Assembly: GCF_000230695.2 (NCBI RefSeq)
Contig: NC_020541.1
Coordinates: 806,001-870,000, forward strand
Direction: 5' to 3'
DNA length: 64,000 bases
From: Rhodanobacter denitrificans
Lineage (GTDB): Bacteria; Pseudomonadota; Gammaproteobacteria; Xanthomonadales; Rhodanobacteraceae
Shown: positions 18,950-58,008 of the stretch, piece by piece
How positions within the stretch are numbered: the stretch's first letter is position 1
How the letters are laid out: every line of letters begins with the position of its first letter
Made by a program: the position numbers and the translations under genes
The notes under the pieces: generated by a model
What the model saw: only the letters and a program-made list of their open reading frames with translations
Databases searched by the model: none
What the model was told of the DNA's origin: nothing

Positions 18950-20293
18950 TCAGATTCCGTAGGCCTTGCGCAGCAGGCTCAACGGATGCTCCGCCGCCGG
19001 CTGGTCGCCGAGGCCGTGGGCGATGTGGCCGCCGGCCATCGGGCAGTCGCTGGTGAAGTGGTCGGGGTTGGCTTGCTCGACGCGATTCTCCACCGGTTTG
19101 GCCAGCTTGCGCGAGAGCGCGTAGGTCTTGTGCTTGACGCCGTAGGTGCCGTCGTGGCCGGAGCAGCGCTCGATGGTGGCGATCTCGGTGTCCGGCACCA
19201 GTTGCAGGATCTCGCGCGTCTTCGGGCCGATCTTCTGCACGCGCTGGTGGCACGGCACCTGCCAGGCGACCTTGCCCAGCGACGTCTTGAAGTCGGTCTT
19301 GAGCAGGCCGGCCTTGTGCCGTTCGGCCAGGTACTCGAACGGGTCGAAGAAGCGCTCGCGTACCAGCGCCACCTCGGCGTCATCGGGGAACATCAGCGGC
19401 AGCTCCTGCTTGAACATCAGCACGCAGGACGGGATCGCCGCGGTGAAATCCCAGCCTTCGCGCGCCATCTTCGCCAGCACCGGGATGTTGCGCTGCTTGT
19501 ACTTCGTCACCGTCTGCAGGTCGCCCAGCTCCAGCTTGGGCATGCCGCAGCAGCTCTCCTGTTCGACCAGCTTGGTCGGGATCGCGTTGTGCTGCAGCAC
19601 CGCGGCGAGGTCTTCGACCACCGCCGGGTCGGAGTGGTCGCAATAGCAGGTGGCGAACAGCGCGACCTTGCCGCGCGTGCGGCCGGCGGGCACCGCTTCG
19701 CCGCTGCCGTCGAGGTCGCGCAGGCGTTTGCGCGCGGTGGGCGAGTGGTACTCGGGCACGCGCGCGTCCGCGTCGACGCCCAGGGTCTTTTCCAGCAGCT
19801 GGCGCGCGACCGGGTTGCGGTTGGCGGCGTTGACCACCTGCACCACCACCGGGATCGACGCGAGCTTGCCGACGGTGCGCGTGCTGGACAGGATCCTCGA
19901 CGACAACGGCGCGCCGTCACGCTCGAACGCCACCGCCTTGGCGCGCAGCATCAGGTGCGGGAAATCCACGTTCCACGGGTGCGGCGGCGTATACGGGCAC
20001 TTGGTCTGGTAGCACAGGTCGCACAGGTAGCACTGCTCGGTGACCTTCGGGTAGTCGGCCTTGTCGACGCCGTCGATCTCCATCGTCGCCGACGCGTCAA
20101 CCAGGTCGAACAGGGTAGGGAAGGCGTGGCACAGGCTGACGCAGCGGCGGCAGCCGTGGCAGATGTCGAACACGCGCTCCATCTCCGCTTCCAGCGCCGT
20201 GGCGTCCCAGAAAGCGGGCTCGTGCTGGCCCAGCGGATGGCGTGTGGGTGCGTCGAGGTTGCCTTCGCGCGTTTCGTGGATGGGGTCGGCCAT
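18950..20293 (-). CDS. Heterodisulfide reductase-related iron-sulfur protein
   Basis: 447-aa cytoplasmic protein with two ferredoxin-like 4Fe-4S motifs near the N-terminus ([11 protein letters not shown] around residue 45 and [12 protein letters not shown] around residue 87) and a C-terminal cysteine-rich (CCG-type) region including [20 protein letters not shown], and CSGHDGTYG. This resembles GlpC/HdrD-like electron-transfer proteins. The ribosome site GGGGAG lies 6 bases before the ATG. It is followed by DUF3501 and the membrane-anchored protein with 2-base gaps, and preceded by rubrerythrin. A role passing electrons to the rubrerythrin for peroxide reduction is inference from context. Confidence 0.88.
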
Positions 20294-20349
20294 CGTGTTC
20301 TCCCCGCGGGCTGGAACAGATCGGGTCAGGCAGCGTCAACGCCTGCGAT

Positions 20350-20379
20350 CCGCCATCCCGGCTTTCGCCGGGATGGCGG
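20350..20379. repeat. Perfect 13-bp hairpin between rubrerythrin and the iron-sulfur gene
   Basis: CCGCCATCCCGGC and GCCGGGATGGCGG around a TTTC loop. The CATCCCGGC/GCCGGGATG core is the form of common short intergenic repeats in Xanthomonadales. No T-run follows on the transcribed (minus) strand, so it may act as an RNA processing or stability hairpin that sets different levels of rubrerythrin and the downstream genes. Confidence 0.6.
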
Positions 20380-20399
20380 CCAGGAGCAGGCGGCCGCGT

Positions 20400-20819
20400 T
20401 CAGGCCATGTCGCCCAGCGCCTTGGTAAAGCGGTTCGCGTGCGAACGCTCGGCCTTGGCCAGCGTCTCGAACCAGTCGGCGATCTCCTCGAAGCCTTCCT
20501 CGCGCGCAGCCTTGGCCATGCCCGGGTACATGTCGGTGTATTCGTGGGTCTCGCCGGCGATCGCGCTCTTCAGGTTCAGCTGGGTGCCGCCGAACGGCAG
20601 GCCGGTGGCAGGGTCGCCCACCGCCTCGAGGTATTCCAGGTGGCCGTGGGCATGGCCGGTCTCGCCTTCGGCGGTGGAGCGGAACACCGCGGAAATGTCG
20701 TTGTAGCCCTCGACGTCGGCCTTGGCGGCGAAGTACAGGTAGCGGCGGTTCGCCATCGACTCGCCGGCGAAGGCGTCTTTCAGGTTCTGCTCGGTCTTGG
20801 AGCCTTTCAGGTTGCTCAT
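20400..20819 (-). CDS. Rubrerythrin family di-iron protein (short form)
   Basis: 139-aa ferritin-like protein expected to reduce hydrogen peroxide with a di-iron centre. Two ExxH motifs are visible ([14 protein letters not shown] and [10 protein letters not shown]), with further glutamates in [12 protein letters not shown] and [11 protein letters not shown]. The C-terminal rubredoxin domain of classical rubrerythrin is absent, so an external electron donor is needed. The ATG at 20819 was chosen because GAGGTG lies 5 bases upstream; the longer upstream frame has no support. A complete OxyR-type site and a promoter lie just upstream. The iron-sulfur/DUF3501 genes follow after 106 bases. Confidence 0.9.
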
Positions 20820-20885
20820 GACATCACCTCGTGACGTTGGGCTGGGAGGGGTTGCGCGTGCGGCCTTCATGGTCGTGACCGGCCG

Positions 20886-20951
20886 AGCCTAGCGCGCGGT
20901 GGGTTGCCGGTGAAATTGATTGTCTGGATCGGGCGGATAGCCCGCAGCTAT
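20886..20951 (-). promoter_or_regulatory. OxyR-type binding site and promoter of the rubrerythrin gene
   Basis: On the minus strand the 37 bases 20951-20915 read ATAG-N7-CTAT-N7-ATCC-N7-CAAT, with the exact 7-base spacings of the OxyR consensus; the distal half matches ATAG/CTAT perfectly. It overlaps the oxyR stop codon. Directly after it come a -35-like TTCACC (20914-20909), a 17-base spacer and a -10 TAGGCT (20891-20886). The predicted start near 20879 leaves a ~60-base leader. The same geometry (23 bases from site to -10) recurs at the oxyR divergent promoter. Confidence 0.65.
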
Positions 20952-21919
20952 CGGGGCGCGGCCTTGCGCGCGGCGCGCACGGGCTTCGCCGGCGGCGCGG
21001 GCGTGGCGGCCGTGTGCGGGTTCAGCAGGTCGGCCGGCAACTGCCGGAATACCGCAGCCAGCCGCTTCAGGAAGTCGGCCATCGCCGAGCTCTTGCGCCA
21101 GACCATGGCGACACGCCGGCTTGGCGGATGGCCCTTGAACTCGATCAGGTGCAGGTTGTCCAGCGGTGCCACCGGCGGCTTCACCGCGGTGACCGGCAGC
21201 AGGGTGATGCCGACGTTCGCCGCCACCATCTGCCGCAGCGTCTCCAGGCTGGTGGCGCGGAAGCCGCTGCGCTCGACGGCGCCGGCAAGATGGCATACCT
21301 CCAGCGCCTGGTCGCGCAGGCAATGGCCGTCTTCCAGCAGCAGCAGGTTCTGGTTGGAAAGGTCGGCCAGTTTCAGCTGGCCCTGCCTGTGCGCCAGCGG
21401 ATGTTCGCCCGATACCGCCAGCAGGAACGGTTCCTCGAACAGGAACTCGCTGTGCAGGCTGTCCTCGTGCAGCGGCAGGGCGAGGATGCCGGCGTCCAGC
21501 TTGCCCTCGCGCAGCAGGCGCAGCACCGCCTCGGTCTTTTCCTCGACCAGCAGCAGTTCCAGCCGAGGGAAGGCTTGGCGCACCAGCGGCAGGGCATGCG
21601 GCAGCAGGTACGGGCCCAAGGTGGGGAAGATGCCCAGCCGCACCGTGCCCGATTCCGGGTCCAGCGTGCGGCGGGCCACGCTGCGGATCTGCTCGACCCC
21701 GTTGAGTACGTCGCGTGCGCGGATGGCGATGTCGCGGCCGACCTCGGTCAGCAGCACCTTGCGCGGGGTGCGTTCGACCAGCGGCACGCCCAGTTCCTCT
21801 TCCAGTTTCTTGATCTGGGTGGACAGGGTGGGCTGGCTGACGAAGCAGGCATCCGCGGCGCGGCCGAAGTGCCGGTGTTCGGCCAGGGCCACCAGGTACT
21901 GGAGATCGCGCAGGTTCAT
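20948..21919 (-). CDS. oxyR: Hydrogen peroxide-inducible regulator OxyR
   Basis: LysR-type regulator of the peroxide response, 323 aa. The N-terminal winged helix-turn-helix (NLRDLQYLVALAEHRHFGRAAD, SQPTLSTQIKKLE) is followed by the effector domain. The redox pair is plain: C200 and C209 in GHCLRDQALEVC, equivalent to E. coli C199/C208. The C-terminus carries a ~25-residue basic Ala/Pro extension (VRAARKAAPR) not needed in the E. coli protein. The ATG at 21919 is preferred over an upstream in-frame start that would lie upstream of the predicted transcript start. Its promoter overlaps an OxyR site, implying autorepression. Confidence 0.95.
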   Translation of the reverse strand: MNLRDLQYLVALAEHRHFGRAADACFVSQPTLSTQIKKLEEELGVPLVERTPRKVLLTEVGRDIAIRARDVLNGVEQIRSVARRTLDPESGTVRLGIFPTLGPYLLPHALPLVRQAFPRLELLLVEEKTEAVLRLLREGKLDAGILALPLHEDSLHSEFLFEEPFLLAVSGEHPLAHRQGQLKLADLSNQNLLLLEDGHCLRDQALEVCHLAGAVERSGFRATSLETLRQMVAANVGITLLPVTAVKPPVAPLDNLHLIEFKGHPPSRRVAMVWRKSSAMADFLKRLAAVFRQLPADLLNPHTAATPAPPAKPVRAARKAAPR

Positions 21920-21938
21920 GGATCGTCCCGGCTCGGCA

Positions 21939-21975
21939 ATAGCCATACGCTATGACAGGGATGGTAACAATCAAT
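21939..21975. promoter_or_regulatory. OxyR-type site overlapping the oxyR promoter and a divergent promoter
   Basis: Plus strand: ATAG (21939-21942)-N7-CTAT (21950-21953)-N7-ATGG (21961-21964)-N7-CAAT (21972-21975), the full OxyR spacing with the oxyR-proximal half perfect. On the minus strand it covers a likely oxyR promoter (TTGATT, 16 bases, TAGCGT at 21952-21947), placing the oxyR ATG ~20 bases from the start. On the plus strand it abuts TTGGAG (21975-21980), 18 bases from TACGCT (21999-22004), a predicted activated promoter. Confidence 0.65.
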
Positions 21976-22010
21976 TGGAGCAATGCAAGCGGGCGCCTTA
22001 CGCTGCACCG

Positions 22011-22105
22011 GCGATCCCCCGCGCGTCGGAGTTCCCTCCCTCTTCCCCCGCGGCGCGCGGGCTTTCCGGCCGGCGATGAAGTTCGCTTCATCGCCGGTTT
22101 TCTTT
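22011..22105 (+). ncRNA. Candidate OxyS-like peroxide-induced small RNA divergent from oxyR
   Basis: About 95 bases between the predicted OxyR-activated promoter and a strong intrinsic terminator, with no supported open frame and no gene of the plus strand upstream for the terminator to serve. The 5' half contains a pyrimidine tract (CCCTCCCTCTTCCCCC at 22034-22049) that could pair with Shine-Dalgarno sequences, a common seed type in trans-acting RNAs. Position, orientation and size resemble E. coli oxyS, but I see no sequence similarity to it. The 5' end is inferred from the promoter position only. Confidence 0.5.
22070..22105 (+). terminator. Strong intrinsic terminator upstream of the M1 aminopeptidase gene
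   Basis: A perfect 12-bp stem (CCGGCGATGAAG with CTTCATCGCCGG) closes a UUCG tetraloop and is followed by TTTTCTTT. It reads on the plus strand, where the only upstream transcription would come from the promoter divergent from oxyR. Alternatively it could attenuate transcription into the aminopeptidase gene, whose own promoter would have to lie in 22106-22190; none is obvious there. Confidence 0.85.
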
Positions 22106-22214
22106 GGGTGCTGTCGCAGACGGCGCCGGCCGCGTGGCGGGCATGCCTTCTGGCACTGGGTCGGAGGTCATGCCGGCTCTAGCTTGAGGTTTTCCCCACG
22201 CCAGAGAAATCCTC

Positions 22215-24917
22215 ATGCGACGACTCGCCCGCCCTCTCCTGCTTACCGCGCTGGCCACCTGCTGCGGCGCCGCGTTCGCCGCCACCGCCGACCAGGCGCC
22301 GCAGGGCCGGCTGCCGGGCTGGGCGGTGCCGCAGTCGTACCAGCTCGCGTTCAAGGTCGATCCGGCGCAGCAGGATTTCTCCGGCACCACCACGATCAAG
22401 GTCAAGCTAACCCAGGCCTCCGACCACCTGTGGCTGGACGGTGCGGGGCTGAAGGTGTCGAAGGTGACCGTCACCGACGCCGCCGGCAAGGCGCACGCCG
22501 GCAAGTACGTGGCGGTGGACCCGAAGGCCGGCGTGGCGCGGGTGGATTTCGGCCGCACGCTGAAGCCGCAGCAGCTGACGGTGAAGGTCGAGTACACCGC
22601 GCCGCTCAACCAGCAGTTGCAGGGCCTGTACAAGGTCACCGCGAAGGGCCAGCCGTATGCGATGACGCAGATGGAACCGATCAGCGCGCGCTTCGCCTTC
22701 CCCGGCTTCGACGAGCCGGGCTTCAAGACGCCGTTCGACCTCAGCATCACCGTGCCCGACCACGAAAACGTGGTGGCGAACACCCAGCAGGTGAGGGAGC
22801 AGCCGGCCGGCAGGGGCTGGAAGACGGTGACCTTCGCGCAGACGCTGCCGCTGCCGACCTACCTGGTCGCGTTCGCGGTCGGTCCGTGGGACATCGTCGC
22901 CGGCCCGGACATCTCGCCGACCGCGTATCGCGTCAAGCCGCTGCAGCTGCGCGGTATCGCCGCCAAGGGCGAGGGACAGCGCATGCAGCACGTGCTGGGC
23001 GAAACGCCGAGCATCATCCACGCGCTGGAGAACTACTACGGCTTCGGCTACCCGTTCGACAAGCTGGACCTGCTGGCCGCGCCGGATTTCGAGGCCGGCG
23101 CGATGGAGAACCCCGGCCTGGTCACCTTCCGCGACTGGCTGCTGCTGATCGACAAGGATTCGCCCGCGCGCAACGTGCGGGGCTCGTTCAACGTCAACGC
23201 GCATGAGCTCGCGCACCAGTGGACCGGCGACACGGTCACCACCGAATGGTGGAACGACATCTGGCTCAACGAGGCGTTCGCCACCTGGATGCAGCAGAAG
23301 GTGACCATGCAGGTGCACCCGGAATACCGCGCCGACCTCGACCGCGTGCGCGGCGGCCAGGGCGCGATGAACAACGACAGCCTGGTCAGCGCGCGCAGCA
23401 TCCGCCAGCCGATCACCGGCAACGGCGACATCATGACCGCGTTCGACGGCATCACCTACCAGAAGGGTGCCAGCGTCATCGGCATGTTCGAGAACTACGT
23501 GGGCGAGCCGACCTACCAGAAGGGCATGCGCGCGTACATCCAGAGCCAGAAGTACGGCAACGCCACCGCCGACGACCTGGTCTCGGCGATCGCCACCGCG
23601 GCGGACAAGGGCGATGCATTCAAGCATGCGTTCAAGAGCTTCCTCGACCAGTCCGGCGTGCCGTACGTGGCGACGAAGCTGGAACAGAAAAACGGCCAGG
23701 CCGTGCTGCAGCTGAGCCAGAGCCGCTACCTGCCGCTCGGCAGCAGCGGCGATCCGCAGCGCATCTGGGGCGTGCCGGTATGCGTGCGCTACGGCACTGC
23801 CGCCAGCGGCAAAGATGGAGCACCATCCAGCAAGGTCGCTTGCAAGATGCTCGACAAGGCGACCGGCTCGATGGTGCTGGCCGGCGCCAGCCAGCCGACC
23901 TGGATCATGCCGAACGCGAACGCCAGCGGCTATTACCGCTTCAGCCTCGACAAGTCGGAGCTGGGCGGGCTGGTCAAGCAGATCGGCAAGCTCAGCGATG
24001 CCGAGCAACTCGCCTACGCCGACGCGATCGGCGCCAGCTTCCGCCATGGCGACATCGATGCCGGCGACATGCTGGCTGCATTGCAGCCGTTGGCCGGTTC
24101 GAAAATCCGCGAAGTGGCCACCGTGCCGCTGGACCAGGCGGCGCAGCTCTACCATCGCATCGCCGCCAACAATGCGCAGCGCGCCCGTCTGGCCGAGTGG
24201 GCAAAGGCGGCCTACCTGCCGCGGCTGGAGCAGCTCGGCTACCAGCGCAAGGCGAACGAGCCGGAAGACGATGCGCTGATGCGCAGCAGCCTGGCCGGCG
24301 CGCTGGCGTTCGACTTCAAGCTGCCGCAGGTGCGTGCGGCCCTGCTCAAGCAAGGTGAGGCCGCGCTCAAGCCGGGCGCCGATGGCCGTCTGAACCTGGC
24401 TGCCGCCGATCCCGACCTGCTCGGCGATGCGCTGGGCGTGGCGGTGCAGGAACACGGCAAGAGCGTGGTCGATGCGCTGATCGCCGAGCTGCCCAAGACC
24501 AGCGATCCGGCCCTGCGCAACGGCATCCTCGGCGGCCTGGCCAGCGTGGAAGATCCTGCGCTGGCCGAGCAGGTGCGCAACTTCGCATTGACCAAGCCAG
24601 TGAAGGTCGGCGAGATGGGCATGCTGCTGCGCGGCGGCCGCGACACGCTGGCCCAGCGCGATGCGATGTGGACGTGGTTCACTGGACACTACCAGCAGAT
24701 CCTCGATCGCACCGGCAGCTTCTCCGGCGGCCGCCTGCCGTCGCTGGCGGCCGGCGGTGGCTGCTCCAGCGCTGAGTACGATCGCCTGCAGGCGTTCTTC
24801 AAGACCCGCGAAAAGGACGCCGCCGGCATCGGCCGCGGCCTGGCGCAGACCGGCGAGTCGATCCAGCTGTGCGGCGCGCTGAAGGCGAAGCAGGATCCGG
24901 CCGCGATCCTGCGCTGA
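22215..24917 (+). CDS. Exported M1 family zinc aminopeptidase
   Basis: Peptidase of 900 aa that removes N-terminal residues from peptides. It has a signal peptide (ending AAFAATADQ), an N-terminal beta domain, the exopeptidase motif GAMENPG near residue 296, and the zinc motif HELAHQW (near 331) followed 18 residues later by the third ligand in LNEAFATWMQ. A C-terminal ERAP1-like helical domain follows. The signal peptide suggests a periplasmic or secreted enzyme rather than cytoplasmic PepN. The start is supported by the signal peptide; the ribosome site (AGAGAAAT) is weak. Its 3' terminator is disrupted by an IS element. Confidence 0.93.
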   Translation: MRRLARPLLLTALATCCGAAFAATADQAPQGRLPGWAVPQSYQLAFKVDPAQQDFSGTTTIKVKLTQASDHLWLDGAGLKVSKVTVTDAAGKAHAGKYVAVDPKAGVARVDFGRTLKPQQLTVKVEYTAPLNQQLQGLYKVTAKGQPYAMTQMEPISARFAFPGFDEPGFKTPFDLSITVPDHENVVANTQQVREQPAGRGWKTVTFAQTLPLPTYLVAFAVGPWDIVAGPDISPTAYRVKPLQLRGIAAKGEGQRMQHVLGETPSIIHALENYYGFGYPFDKLDLLAAPDFEAGAMENPGLVTFRDWLLLIDKDSPARNVRGSFNVNAHELAHQWTGDTVTTEWWNDIWLNEAFATWMQQKVTMQVHPEYRADLDRVRGGQGAMNNDSLVSARSIRQPITGNGDIMTAFDGITYQKGASVIGMFENYVGEPTYQKGMRAYIQSQKYGNATADDLVSAIATAADKGDAFKHAFKSFLDQSGVPYVATKLEQKNGQAVLQLSQSRYLPLGSSGDPQRIWGVPVCVRYGTAASGKDGAPSSKVACKMLDKATGSMVLAGASQPTWIMPNANASGYYRFSLDKSELGGLVKQIGKLSDAEQLAYADAIGASFRHGDIDAGDMLAALQPLAGSKIREVATVPLDQAAQLYHRIAANNAQRARLAEWAKAAYLPRLEQLGYQRKANEPEDDALMRSSLAGALAFDFKLPQVRAALLKQGEAALKPGADGRLNLAAADPDLLGDALGVAVQEHGKSVVDALIAELPKTSDPALRNGILGGLASVEDPALAEQVRNFALTKPVKVGEMGMLLRGGRDTLAQRDAMWTWFTGHYQQILDRTGSFSGGRLPSLAAGGGCSSAEYDRLQAFFKTREKDAAGIGRGLAQTGESIQLCGALKAKQDPAAILR

Positions 24918-24957: not shown

Positions 24958-24990
24958 AATGCCAGTCAGTTAAGACAGACTGGCATTTTT
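24958..24990 (+). terminator. Terminator-like hairpin formed by the left IS end
   Basis: AATGCCAGTC (24958-24967) pairs perfectly with GACTGGCATT (24978-24987) over a 10-base loop, followed by TTT. It stands where the interrupted aminopeptidase terminator used to act and may replace it. Confidence 0.5.
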
Positions 24991-26310
24991 CGTGGGGTAT
25001 TTGTGGGGTCGGCGTTTGACTTCACGGGGACAAGATCGTTGTCGTCGTGCGGGCAACAGATAGATGTGGGCTTGCTGTCGGAGGCGGGCGAGTCGTTTGG
25101 GAAAGGCGCCGGGTGTTTCCAGCGGGGCGTATCGCAACTCGGCCACGATGGCGCGCGTGAACCCCTGGAAGCTGAGCCGGGTCGGTGGCACGCCCAGCTC
25201 ACCAGCGGTTTGGTGCATTTCCCAGCGCAGCAGGTTGTAGGCGATCAGCAGCCCCCAGATTTCCTGCCGCACCAGCTCCGGTCGCTTGCTGCGCAAGACG
25301 GTGTCGTTGGCTTGCATGGCTTGCTTGATGTCCCGAAAACCCAGTTCGATCTCCCAGCGTTCGCGATAGCACACTGCCACCTGATCGGCGGGATATCGAA
25401 CGGCATCGGCCAGCGAGGTCAGGTAGCGCCGACCGGAAGGACAGAGGATCAGACGCGCCTCCCAGAAGGTTGGCAGCTGCGGATGCTGGCGACGGGCTTG
25501 CGGCGAGACCGGCAGGCGCACCCACGCATCGCCTTCACCGAGCGGACGGATCACCTCATAACGCAACGAGGACTTGGCTCGCATCAGCCAGTGCCGCTGC
25601 TCTCCCGCATGCTGCCACGCCAGCAGGAAAGCCGCCGAATAGTAGGCGCGGTCGAAGATCGTCAGTGAGTCATCGGGCGCCGCGGTTACCAGATCGTGGG
25701 CGTAGCTGAGCTCGCCGGTCGTATAGGCACCGAAGGCGGCGGCCCGGATCAGGTGCGTATGAACATCCATCAGGCACACCGCACGCACCTGCGGCCAACT
25801 CCCTTCACCGTGCTGCGATCGTCCTGCGCCGAAGACATCACGATGCTCGGCGGTATCAGGCGTCGACCACACCACGCCATCGACCGCCAACAGGCGAAGC
25901 CCGTGGAAGAGCCCGGCCGTCGGAAGCGGTGCGGTGCACCACGCGCGGCTGAGCTGATCGAACAGATGGGCCAACGGCGCTTCACCCAGTCGCTGGCGCC
26001 CTTGAACCGTAGCGCTCGGCACAGGCACGACCTGTGCCTCGGTACCCAACGCCAGCCCCAACTGACGCACAATGTGCCAGATCGGTTCGTTGCGAAACAG
26101 CGCTAAGCCGATGACCAGCCAGATCAATCGCTCGGCCGGCAGACGTCGACGGCGCAGTGACGTCGTGCCAGTCGCTTGCAATGCTTGCTCGATCCAGGCG
26201 GCCGGAATGAGCTGGCTGAAACGATCAAACGCGTCGGGAGACAGATCGCCTACCGCATCAAAGTTGGCTTGCAGGGCTGAGATCAAAGCAAGAGGCTCAT
26301 GGAAAACCAT
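24970..26310 (-). CDS. IS4-family DDE transposase
   Basis: Transposase of 446 aa (456 aa if a TTG at 26340 is used). The N-terminal IS4 domain is followed by the DDE_Tnp_1 catalytic core: first Asp in RLLAVDGVVWS, second in LTIFDRAYYS, and the IS4 signature YRERWEIELGFRDIK (Y-x2-R-x3-E-x6-K) bearing the Glu. The stop codon lies inside the left terminal repeat. I prefer the ATG at 26310 because AAGAGG lies just before it; both are buried in a 14-bp stem-loop, a feature that limits translation of read-through transcripts in several insertion sequences. No frameshift or internal stop. Confidence 0.9.
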   Translation of the reverse strand: MVFHEPLALISALQANFDAVGDLSPDAFDRFSQLIPAAWIEQALQATGTTSLRRRRLPAERLIWLVIGLALFRNEPIWHIVRQLGLALGTEAQVVPVPSATVQGRQRLGEAPLAHLFDQLSRAWCTAPLPTAGLFHGLRLLAVDGVVWSTPDTAEHRDVFGAGRSQHGEGSWPQVRAVCLMDVHTHLIRAAAFGAYTTGELSYAHDLVTAAPDDSLTIFDRAYYSAAFLLAWQHAGEQRHWLMRAKSSLRYEVIRPLGEGDAWVRLPVSPQARRQHPQLPTFWEARLILCPSGRRYLTSLADAVRYPADQVAVCYRERWEIELGFRDIKQAMQANDTVLRSKRPELVRQEIWGLLIAYNLLRWEMHQTAGELGVPPTRLSFQGFTRAIVAELRYAPLETPGAFPKRLARLRQQAHIYLLPARRQRSCPREVKRRPHKYPTKNASLS

Positions 26311-26320
26311 GAGCCTCTTG
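26289..26320 (-). promoter_or_regulatory. Stem-loop sequestering the transposase start
   Basis: A perfect 14-bp stem (CAAGAGGCTCATGG with CCATGAGCCTCTTG) around a 4-base loop contains both the ribosome-site-like AAGAGG and the ATG at 26310 on the minus strand. A transcript entering from outside the element would fold this hairpin and hide the start, as in the IS10/IS50 protective hairpins. Confidence 0.6.
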
Positions 26321-26361
26321 GGTCGTTCCGGCTTCGTCAATACCTTAACTGACTGGCATTA

Positions 26362-57772: not shown

Positions 57773-57801
57773 TCCGGCGCCGGTCAGCCGGCATGACACG
57801 A

Positions 57802-57976
57802 CGTCTTCAGGGCGGGGCGAAATTCCCCACCGGCGGTAGGCCCCGGTTTTCACGGTTTGGGGCGAGCCCGCGAGCGCTTCCGGCCACGCCGGAAGGTCAG
57901 CAGATCCGGTCGAATGCCGGAGCCGACGGTTGGCAGCGGGTGACCGCTTCCTCACAGTCCGGATAAAGCGAAGACG
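57802..57976 (+). promoter_or_regulatory. FMN riboswitch (RFN element)
   Basis: The closing helix P1 is CGTCTTC (57802-57808) with GAAGACG (57970-57976). The conserved core is plain: CAGGGCGGGGCGAAATTCCC, CACCGGCGGTA, GCCCGCGAGCG, GGTCAGCAGATCCGGT, GAATGCCGGAGCCGACGGT and AGTCCGGATAAAGCGAAG. A variable arm GCTTCCGGCCACGCCGGAAG and a second one near TTGGCAGCGGGTGACCGCT are present. It senses FMN and represses the downstream ribE operon; the expression platform is probably the terminator at 58009-58031. Confidence 0.95.
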
Positions 57977-58008
57977 GTTCGGCGCACGGCCTCGCGGCCC
58001 GGCGCCGG

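Follow-up and report, generated by a model that had tools for sequence, protein, structure and literature searches.

The window analysed here is a 64,000-nucleotide stretch of the Rhodanobacter denitrificans genome (NC_020541.1, positions 806,001 to 870,000). It carries oxyR and, divergent from it, a gene for an M1-family aminopeptidase, which is not thought to be part of the system described below. Between the two genes lie an OxyR-type site, a promoter and a predicted two-hairpin RNA (Table 1). The observation of these features is confirmed as real because they are conserved across relatives. The top NCBIfam model for the oxyR product was OxyR PRK11151, with 319.1 bits, slightly below the cut-off of 329. 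The oxyR start codon was set at 21919 on the minus strand from the usual protein start, and we take the CX8C pair of this OxyR to be its redox pair.

Table 1. Features of the oxyR locus, in coordinates of the window.
Feature	Position	Strand	Basis or detail
oxyR, LysR-type peroxide sensor	20948-21919	-	ORF; Pfam HTH_1 and LysR_substrate; CX8C pair GHCLRDQALEVC
OxyR-type site	21939-21975		oxyR-proximal half 21939-21953; promoter-side half 21961-21975
Divergent promoter	21975-22004	+	-35 TTGGAG 21975-21980; -10 TACGCT 21999-22004; 18-base spacer
Predicted small RNA, about 95 nt	22010-22105	+	start placed from the -10; R1 model match 22014-22105, 91.5 bits
Hairpin 1	22018-22061	+	10-bp stem around C-rich loop 22028-22051 GGAGTTCCCTCCCTCTTCCCCCGC
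Hairpin 2 and T tract, predicted intrinsic terminator	22068-22105	+	fold, covariation
Conserved element ahead of the M1 peptidase gene, separate from the RNA	22139-22174	+	82% pairwise identity
M1-family aminopeptidase, next gene	22215-24917	+	Pfam Peptidase_M1

Several other features of the surroundings were recorded. Downstream of oxyR (18950-20834) lie a rubrerythrin gene and one for a GlpC-like iron-sulphur protein; rubrerythrin adjoins oxyR in several relatives, both with and without ahpC. The M1 peptidase gene is followed by an IS4-family transposase gene (24970-26340), and an FMN riboswitch (Rfam RF00050) is found at 57799-57979. The 36-base element ahead of the peptidase gene, TGCCTTCTGGCACTGGGTCG...GTCATGCC, is perhaps a promoter or operator. 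Among 20 loci that carry the RNA and lack ahpC and ahpD (ahpCD-less loci), its identity contrasts with the 20% of the spacer at 22106-22138, and its core is present also in loci without the RNA, such as L056, L059, L079 and L085.

The OxyR-type site reads ATAG-ccatacg-CTAT-gacaggg-ATGG-taacaat-CAAT and agrees with the consensus at 14 of 16 letters, while shuffling the 220-base upstream stretches of 60 relatives (1,200 shuffles) gave no score above 12, which places the site beyond chance. Across the 20 ahpCD-less loci its tetramers have a pairwise identity of 99%, against 66% for the N7 spacers. The site abuts the -35, and OxyR-activated promoters have just this layout. Pairwise identity in the same loci is 0.86 for the -35, 0.72 for the -10 and 0.64 for the spacer between them, and the -10 has the form TAnnnT in 19 of the 20. 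A similar promoter leads into ahpC in relatives. A strict sigma-70 consensus scan of 20500-23500 found no promoter, and a terminator scan gave two sites against 1.6 expected, so from the window alone neither promoter nor terminator stands out from chance. Of three elements that an earlier note had read here, the 37-bp OxyR-type site stands as described. The TTGGAG-N18-TACGCT promoter can be read as claimed and has its -10 preserved, but the strict scan is empty. The 12-bp UUCG-loop terminator hairpin is present and covaries at 9 of its 12 pairs, but the terminator sites of the scan scarcely exceed the expected number.

Folding of 22007-22106 gives two hairpins at -52.3 kcal/mol, whereas shuffled versions average -36.2 (z -5.0). 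In hairpin 2, 12 perfect base pairs close a TTCG loop at 22070-22097, or 14 pairs over 22068-22099 if wobble is admitted; the T tract TTTTCTTT follows at 22098-22105. The C-rich tract CCCTCCCTC lies at 22034-22042, and in the consensus structure the longest unpaired stretch is the C-rich loop, containing CCCUCCCUCUUCCCCC, which resembles the anti-Shine-Dalgarno sequence. In the predicted fold of the window RNA, GGAG at the 5' side of this loop can pair with CUCC inside it, which may partially mask the loop.

When 45 genomes of the genus were searched at the DNA level, 40 matched all or some of this region. The matches fall into separate blocks, one holding the beginning of oxyR and the site, one the RNA and terminator, and one located ahead of the peptidase gene. 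Within the RNA, pairwise identity in the 20 ahpCD-less loci reaches 0.87 and 0.89 in the two arms of hairpin 1 and 0.88 in the T tract, but 0.66 in both the hairpin 1 loop and hairpin 2. The last two are no higher than the N7 spacers and about equal to the -35/-10 spacer (64%), and so the case for the RNA rests on base pairing and motif. In a sequence-based alignment (A2) of 28 hand-chosen copies, assembled without the distant copies and L014, L021 and L034, two-sided changes occur at 12 of 22 pairs, a level reached in 0 of 500 shuffles. A model-based alignment (A4) of 64 copies gave two-sided changes at 17 of 22 pairs (8/10 in hairpin 1, 9/12 in hairpin 2; again 0 of 500 shuffles), with 141 two-sided cells against 29.7 (sd 4.8) in shuffles and at most 15 in slid versions, statistics that take no account of relatedness among copies. 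A4 holds 64 of its 65 sources (L172 did not pass the E cut-off) and is short of the copies found at the locus by five of 69. A loop motif such as CUCCC or UCCCC is kept in hairpin 1, by predicted structure, in 64 of 64 aligned copies, 29 of them ahpCD-less, a count tempered by the make-up of the R1 model, whose source copies had C-rich loops, so that its matches are biased towards such loops.

A coding function for the RNA was considered and set aside, as loop lengths in hairpin 1 vary by one and two bases among relatives. A longer ahpC-less RNA region (L054:2254-2363, L055:2257-2367, L060:2259-2368, and upstream) is present in Dyella ginsengisoli and two relatives; by eye it contains several C-rich-loop hairpins, recalling the three loops of sX13.

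The R1 covariance model matched 82 of 233 family genomes, at one place each. Sixty-nine of these matches are at the oxyR locus, comprising all 66 of at least 40 bits and three weaker ones. The 13 off the locus (L170, L174-L179, L214-L219) all score below 40 bits and have no match to oxyR, ahpC, ahpD, the M1 peptidase or rubrerythrin within about 3 kb; they were taken as chance or unrelated. Three matches outside the family in an order-level sample of 398 genomes (L211-L213), also below 40 bits and off oxyR, were treated likewise.

In 37 genomes the RNA directly follows the ahpC stop codon and forms the 3' end of ahpC, carrying its terminator, as a 3'UTR-derived RNA would; ahpD comes next in 36 of them, and in G020 it is on another contig than ahpC and the RNA. 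AhpD of these relatives passes the TIGR00777 cut-off, and AhpC, an AhpC/TSA peroxiredoxin, stays under that of TIGR03137. In 32 further genomes, the window's included, the RNA is beside oxyR, and neither ahpC nor ahpD was found in the genome. These 32, of which 29 are at least 90% complete, are made up of 24 from the window's genus, five from genus g10, and G143, G145 and G232. Of the 45 genus genomes, 15 carry a close orthologue of ahpC (88-100% identity), and these 15 are also the ones with a close orthologue of ahpD (79-100%). Both ahpC, the parent gene of the RNA, and ahpD are missing from the window's genome, whose closest peroxiredoxin is 37% identical. Leader words such as GCAACACC ahead of hairpin 1 are common to the ahpC-bearing and the ahpCD-less states. 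At L045, L047 and L067 the RNA's place after ahpC is taken by another hairpin or by repeats of a GTAGGAGCGCACCCTGTGCGCGAA unit.

The earlier note had asked for a covariation search over relatives, and covariation is seen at both hairpins. It had also made its reading depend on conservation of site and terminator in relatives where oxyR adjoins the peptidase gene. Such conservation holds in large part: the RNA is present in 24 ahpC-less genomes of the genus, and the site, scored in 23 of these (all but G033), is intact in 22. It fails in G004 and G011, where oxyR is beside the peptidase gene, ahpC is absent, and the RNA and the promoter-side half-site (scores of 2 and 2) are both gone. The genus locus survey covered the ahpC-less genomes other than G001, G002, G027 and G035. 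Eleven loci of named ahpC-less relatives are without the RNA, and no R1 match was obtained in the ahpC-bearing genus genomes G018, G037 and G039. The loss of the RNA from some ahpC-less lineages, together with these three genomes, indicates that it is dispensable.

The two halves of the OxyR site behave differently when the RNA is gone. In ahpC-less named loci the promoter-side half scored 5.88 of 8 where the RNA is present (16 loci) and 2.36 where it is absent (11 loci), with p 2e-6 ignoring relatedness among loci. The oxyR-side half scored 8.00 and 7.91 in the same groups, high values that are partly by construction since this half was chosen as the best half-site. The comparison took in 55 of 80 named loci, in register; the others were L105 and 24 loci without ahpC, RNA or M1 peptidase. 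Groups were typed by hand, and weak R1 matches (L045, L047, L051, L054, L055, L060, L094) counted as RNA-bearing, a looser rule than in the family R1 count, so that three of the 16 RNA-bearing loci (L054, L055, L060) rest on such matches. In the whole-genome set, where 30 of the 32 ahpCD-less RNA loci were scored (all but L020 and L187), the promoter-side half reached 5 or 6 of 8 in 29; in the exception, G038 (L011), the half-sites are otherwise intact but lie one base further apart. Judged from these sequences, the promoter-side half tends to be kept where ahpC or the RNA remains to be made, and where both are gone it decays while the oxyR-side half stays.

This pattern bears on whether the element could be a mere relic, that is, the old ahpC terminator with a stabilising hairpin, left behind when ahpC and ahpD went and now stopping stray transcription from the divergent promoter. 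The element does end in a terminator and does correspond to the ahpC 3' end in relatives. However, hairpin 2 alone would suffice to terminate, yet hairpin 1 covaries at 8 of its 10 pairs and keeps its C-rich loop in every aligned copy, and a relic would not explain why ahpC-less loci keep the promoter-side half-site with the RNA and let it decay without. We therefore consider the relic explanation improbable.

A further alternative is a cis-acting leader, with the element serving as an attenuator, opened or closed by a signal, for the downstream gene (ahpD in relatives, the M1 peptidase here). A gene on the same strand does follow in most arrangements. Against this, the RNA is the same while the downstream gene differs, the spacer that would connect it to the peptidase gene (22106-22138) is unconserved, and the peptidase gene's own upstream element is retained in the four RNA-less loci named above. 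Furthermore, no riboswitch family in Rfam reaches threshold at the RNA. Such a leader is highly unlikely.

Phylogenetic trees were used to examine the distribution of the ahpCD-less state. The main tree, built with IQ-TREE from OxyR and the peptidase N-terminus, has 66 rows (11 without the peptidase part) and is unrooted. A single clade of the 30 ahpCD-less RNA rows was rejected by an AU test (p 1.4e-49), and this tree needs at least six changes of ahpC state, against 13 on a 97-row tree of OxyR alone. The ahpCD-less state thus occurs in more than one clade. Several losses of ahpC and ahpD are the simplest account, with exchange of the whole locus by recombination as a possible alternative.

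The order of events could also have been the reverse, with a free-standing RNA as the ancestral state and ahpC and ahpD inserted on either side of it, and change counts on an unrooted tree cannot separate gain from loss. However, ahpC (E up to 1e-60) and ahpD (E up to 1e-30) are each found in 91 of 233 family genomes, with both in 90, and each is spread over 14 of 26 genera, with the RNA between them in six (g1, g8, g9, g12, g17, g21). From this wide spread we infer loss rather than gain. Two insertions that spared promoter, RNA and neighbour are also less likely than deletions, which makes the reverse order improbable.

We consider it likely, with good confidence, that 21939-22105 holds a free-standing small RNA gene under OxyR control that was born as the ahpC 3'UTR, was freed by the loss of ahpC and ahpD, and acts by pairing through its C-rich loop. 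The best reading of these sequences is a peroxide-induced RNA analogous to OxyS that probably pairs through this loop with G-rich ribosome sites. In the mechanism that we propose, peroxide would oxidise OxyR bound at its site, and oxidised OxyR would recruit RNA polymerase to the divergent promoter. The predicted product would be an RNA consisting of a short leader, the C-loop hairpin 1 and the terminating hairpin 2. The released RNA would pair through CCCUCCCUCUUCCCCC with G-rich ribosome-binding regions and so lower translation of its targets. We infer transcription, peroxide induction and base pairing; an Hfq gene is encoded in the window's genome (G000). The RNA would have arisen as the 3'UTR of ahpC in a locus in which oxyR was divergent from ahpC-RNA-ahpD, and the ahpC and ahpD coding genes would have been lost here and, independently, in other lineages, with promoter and RNA kept.

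Potential targets were sought by complementarity to the loop. The exact complement of the loop core, GAGGGAGGGA, occurs at two places in G000 outside the RNA. One of them, L206, is the Shine-Dalgarno region of a gene for a 201-residue protein without a Pfam match (L206:1488-2118), which is possibly secreted. Perfect complementarity to the loop extends over 12 bases in G000 and over 8 and 7 bases in the two other genomes that have the gene, each compared against its own RNA; at 127 ORF starts in the window, from mechanical frames of which many are not genes, it was 7 or less. This gene was found through the complement search itself and is present in 3 of 45 genus genomes, and it therefore stays a weak candidate. 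Complement searches and the L206 comparison established no conserved target.

It seems reasonably likely that the noncoding tail has been the durable part of the peroxidase operon, that several lineages deleted ahpC and ahpD around it and so fused the OxyR promoter to the RNA, and that an OxyS equivalent was in this way made more than once. If this is true, an OxyR-controlled RNA has been reached by a route other than that of OxyS. The locus bears on how free-standing small RNA genes originate from mRNA 3' ends: relatives show it before the change (ahpC-RNA-ahpD), after it (RNA alone) and with neither left, and a regulatory half-site decays once its product goes. With three states preserved, the birth and the independent value of a small RNA can be tested by comparing and swapping them between species. 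Among the open-licence PMC papers searched, none was seen to report this RNA or an ahpC-derived one that outlived its gene.

In Escherichia coli, OxyS is divergent from oxyR, with an OxyR site abutting its promoter, is about 100 nt long, ends in a terminator, and pairs with fhlA and rpoS with the assistance of Hfq. The RNA of the window shares the divergent position, the abutting site and, by prediction, the length and terminator end, but differs in its two hairpins with one C-rich loop and in its origin from the ahpC 3'UTR. At gathering cut-offs, Rfam gave no OxyS match in the window and no family at the RNA, and at E up to 5 over 21900-22214 it gave four matches, none of them OxyS and all far under gathering scores. 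The RNA is thus unrelated to OxyS in sequence, as the earlier note had held, and its interpretation as an OxyS analogue is supported at the level of sequence. What is added here is that the RNA is the former ahpC 3'UTR, that it has two conserved hairpins and a C-rich loop, and that the ahpCD-less state is not one clade.

In Xanthomonas, the C-rich loops of sX13 are reported to repress mRNAs that carry G-rich motifs close to the translation start; sX13 has three such loops, is Hfq-independent and is discussed with the polA locus (PMC3771888). Our RNA resembles it in the C-rich motif of a hairpin loop but has two hairpins and one C-rich loop, lies at oxyR, and does not show the three stem-loops with 4C/5C loops of the sX13 type. 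MalH and MicX are described as coming from the same genomic place, as an mRNA-derived RNA or as one with its own promoter depending on the species (PMC9438474). The same alternation by species is seen here, although the passage on MalH and MicX mentions no loss of a host gene. Small RNAs derived from 3'UTRs are described in oxidative stress, namely s-SodF and SorX (PMC9438474) and CcsR1-4 (PMC8625941). In the 37 ahpC-bearing relatives the RNA likewise forms a gene's 3' end, that of a peroxide-defence gene behind an OxyR-type promoter, and SorX and the CcsR RNAs also belong to oxidative-stress responses; in the window, unlike in those cases as described, no parent coding genes remain and the RNA is directly behind the promoter. 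OxyS is the functionally nearest system, and the 3'UTR-derived RNAs are the nearest by origin.
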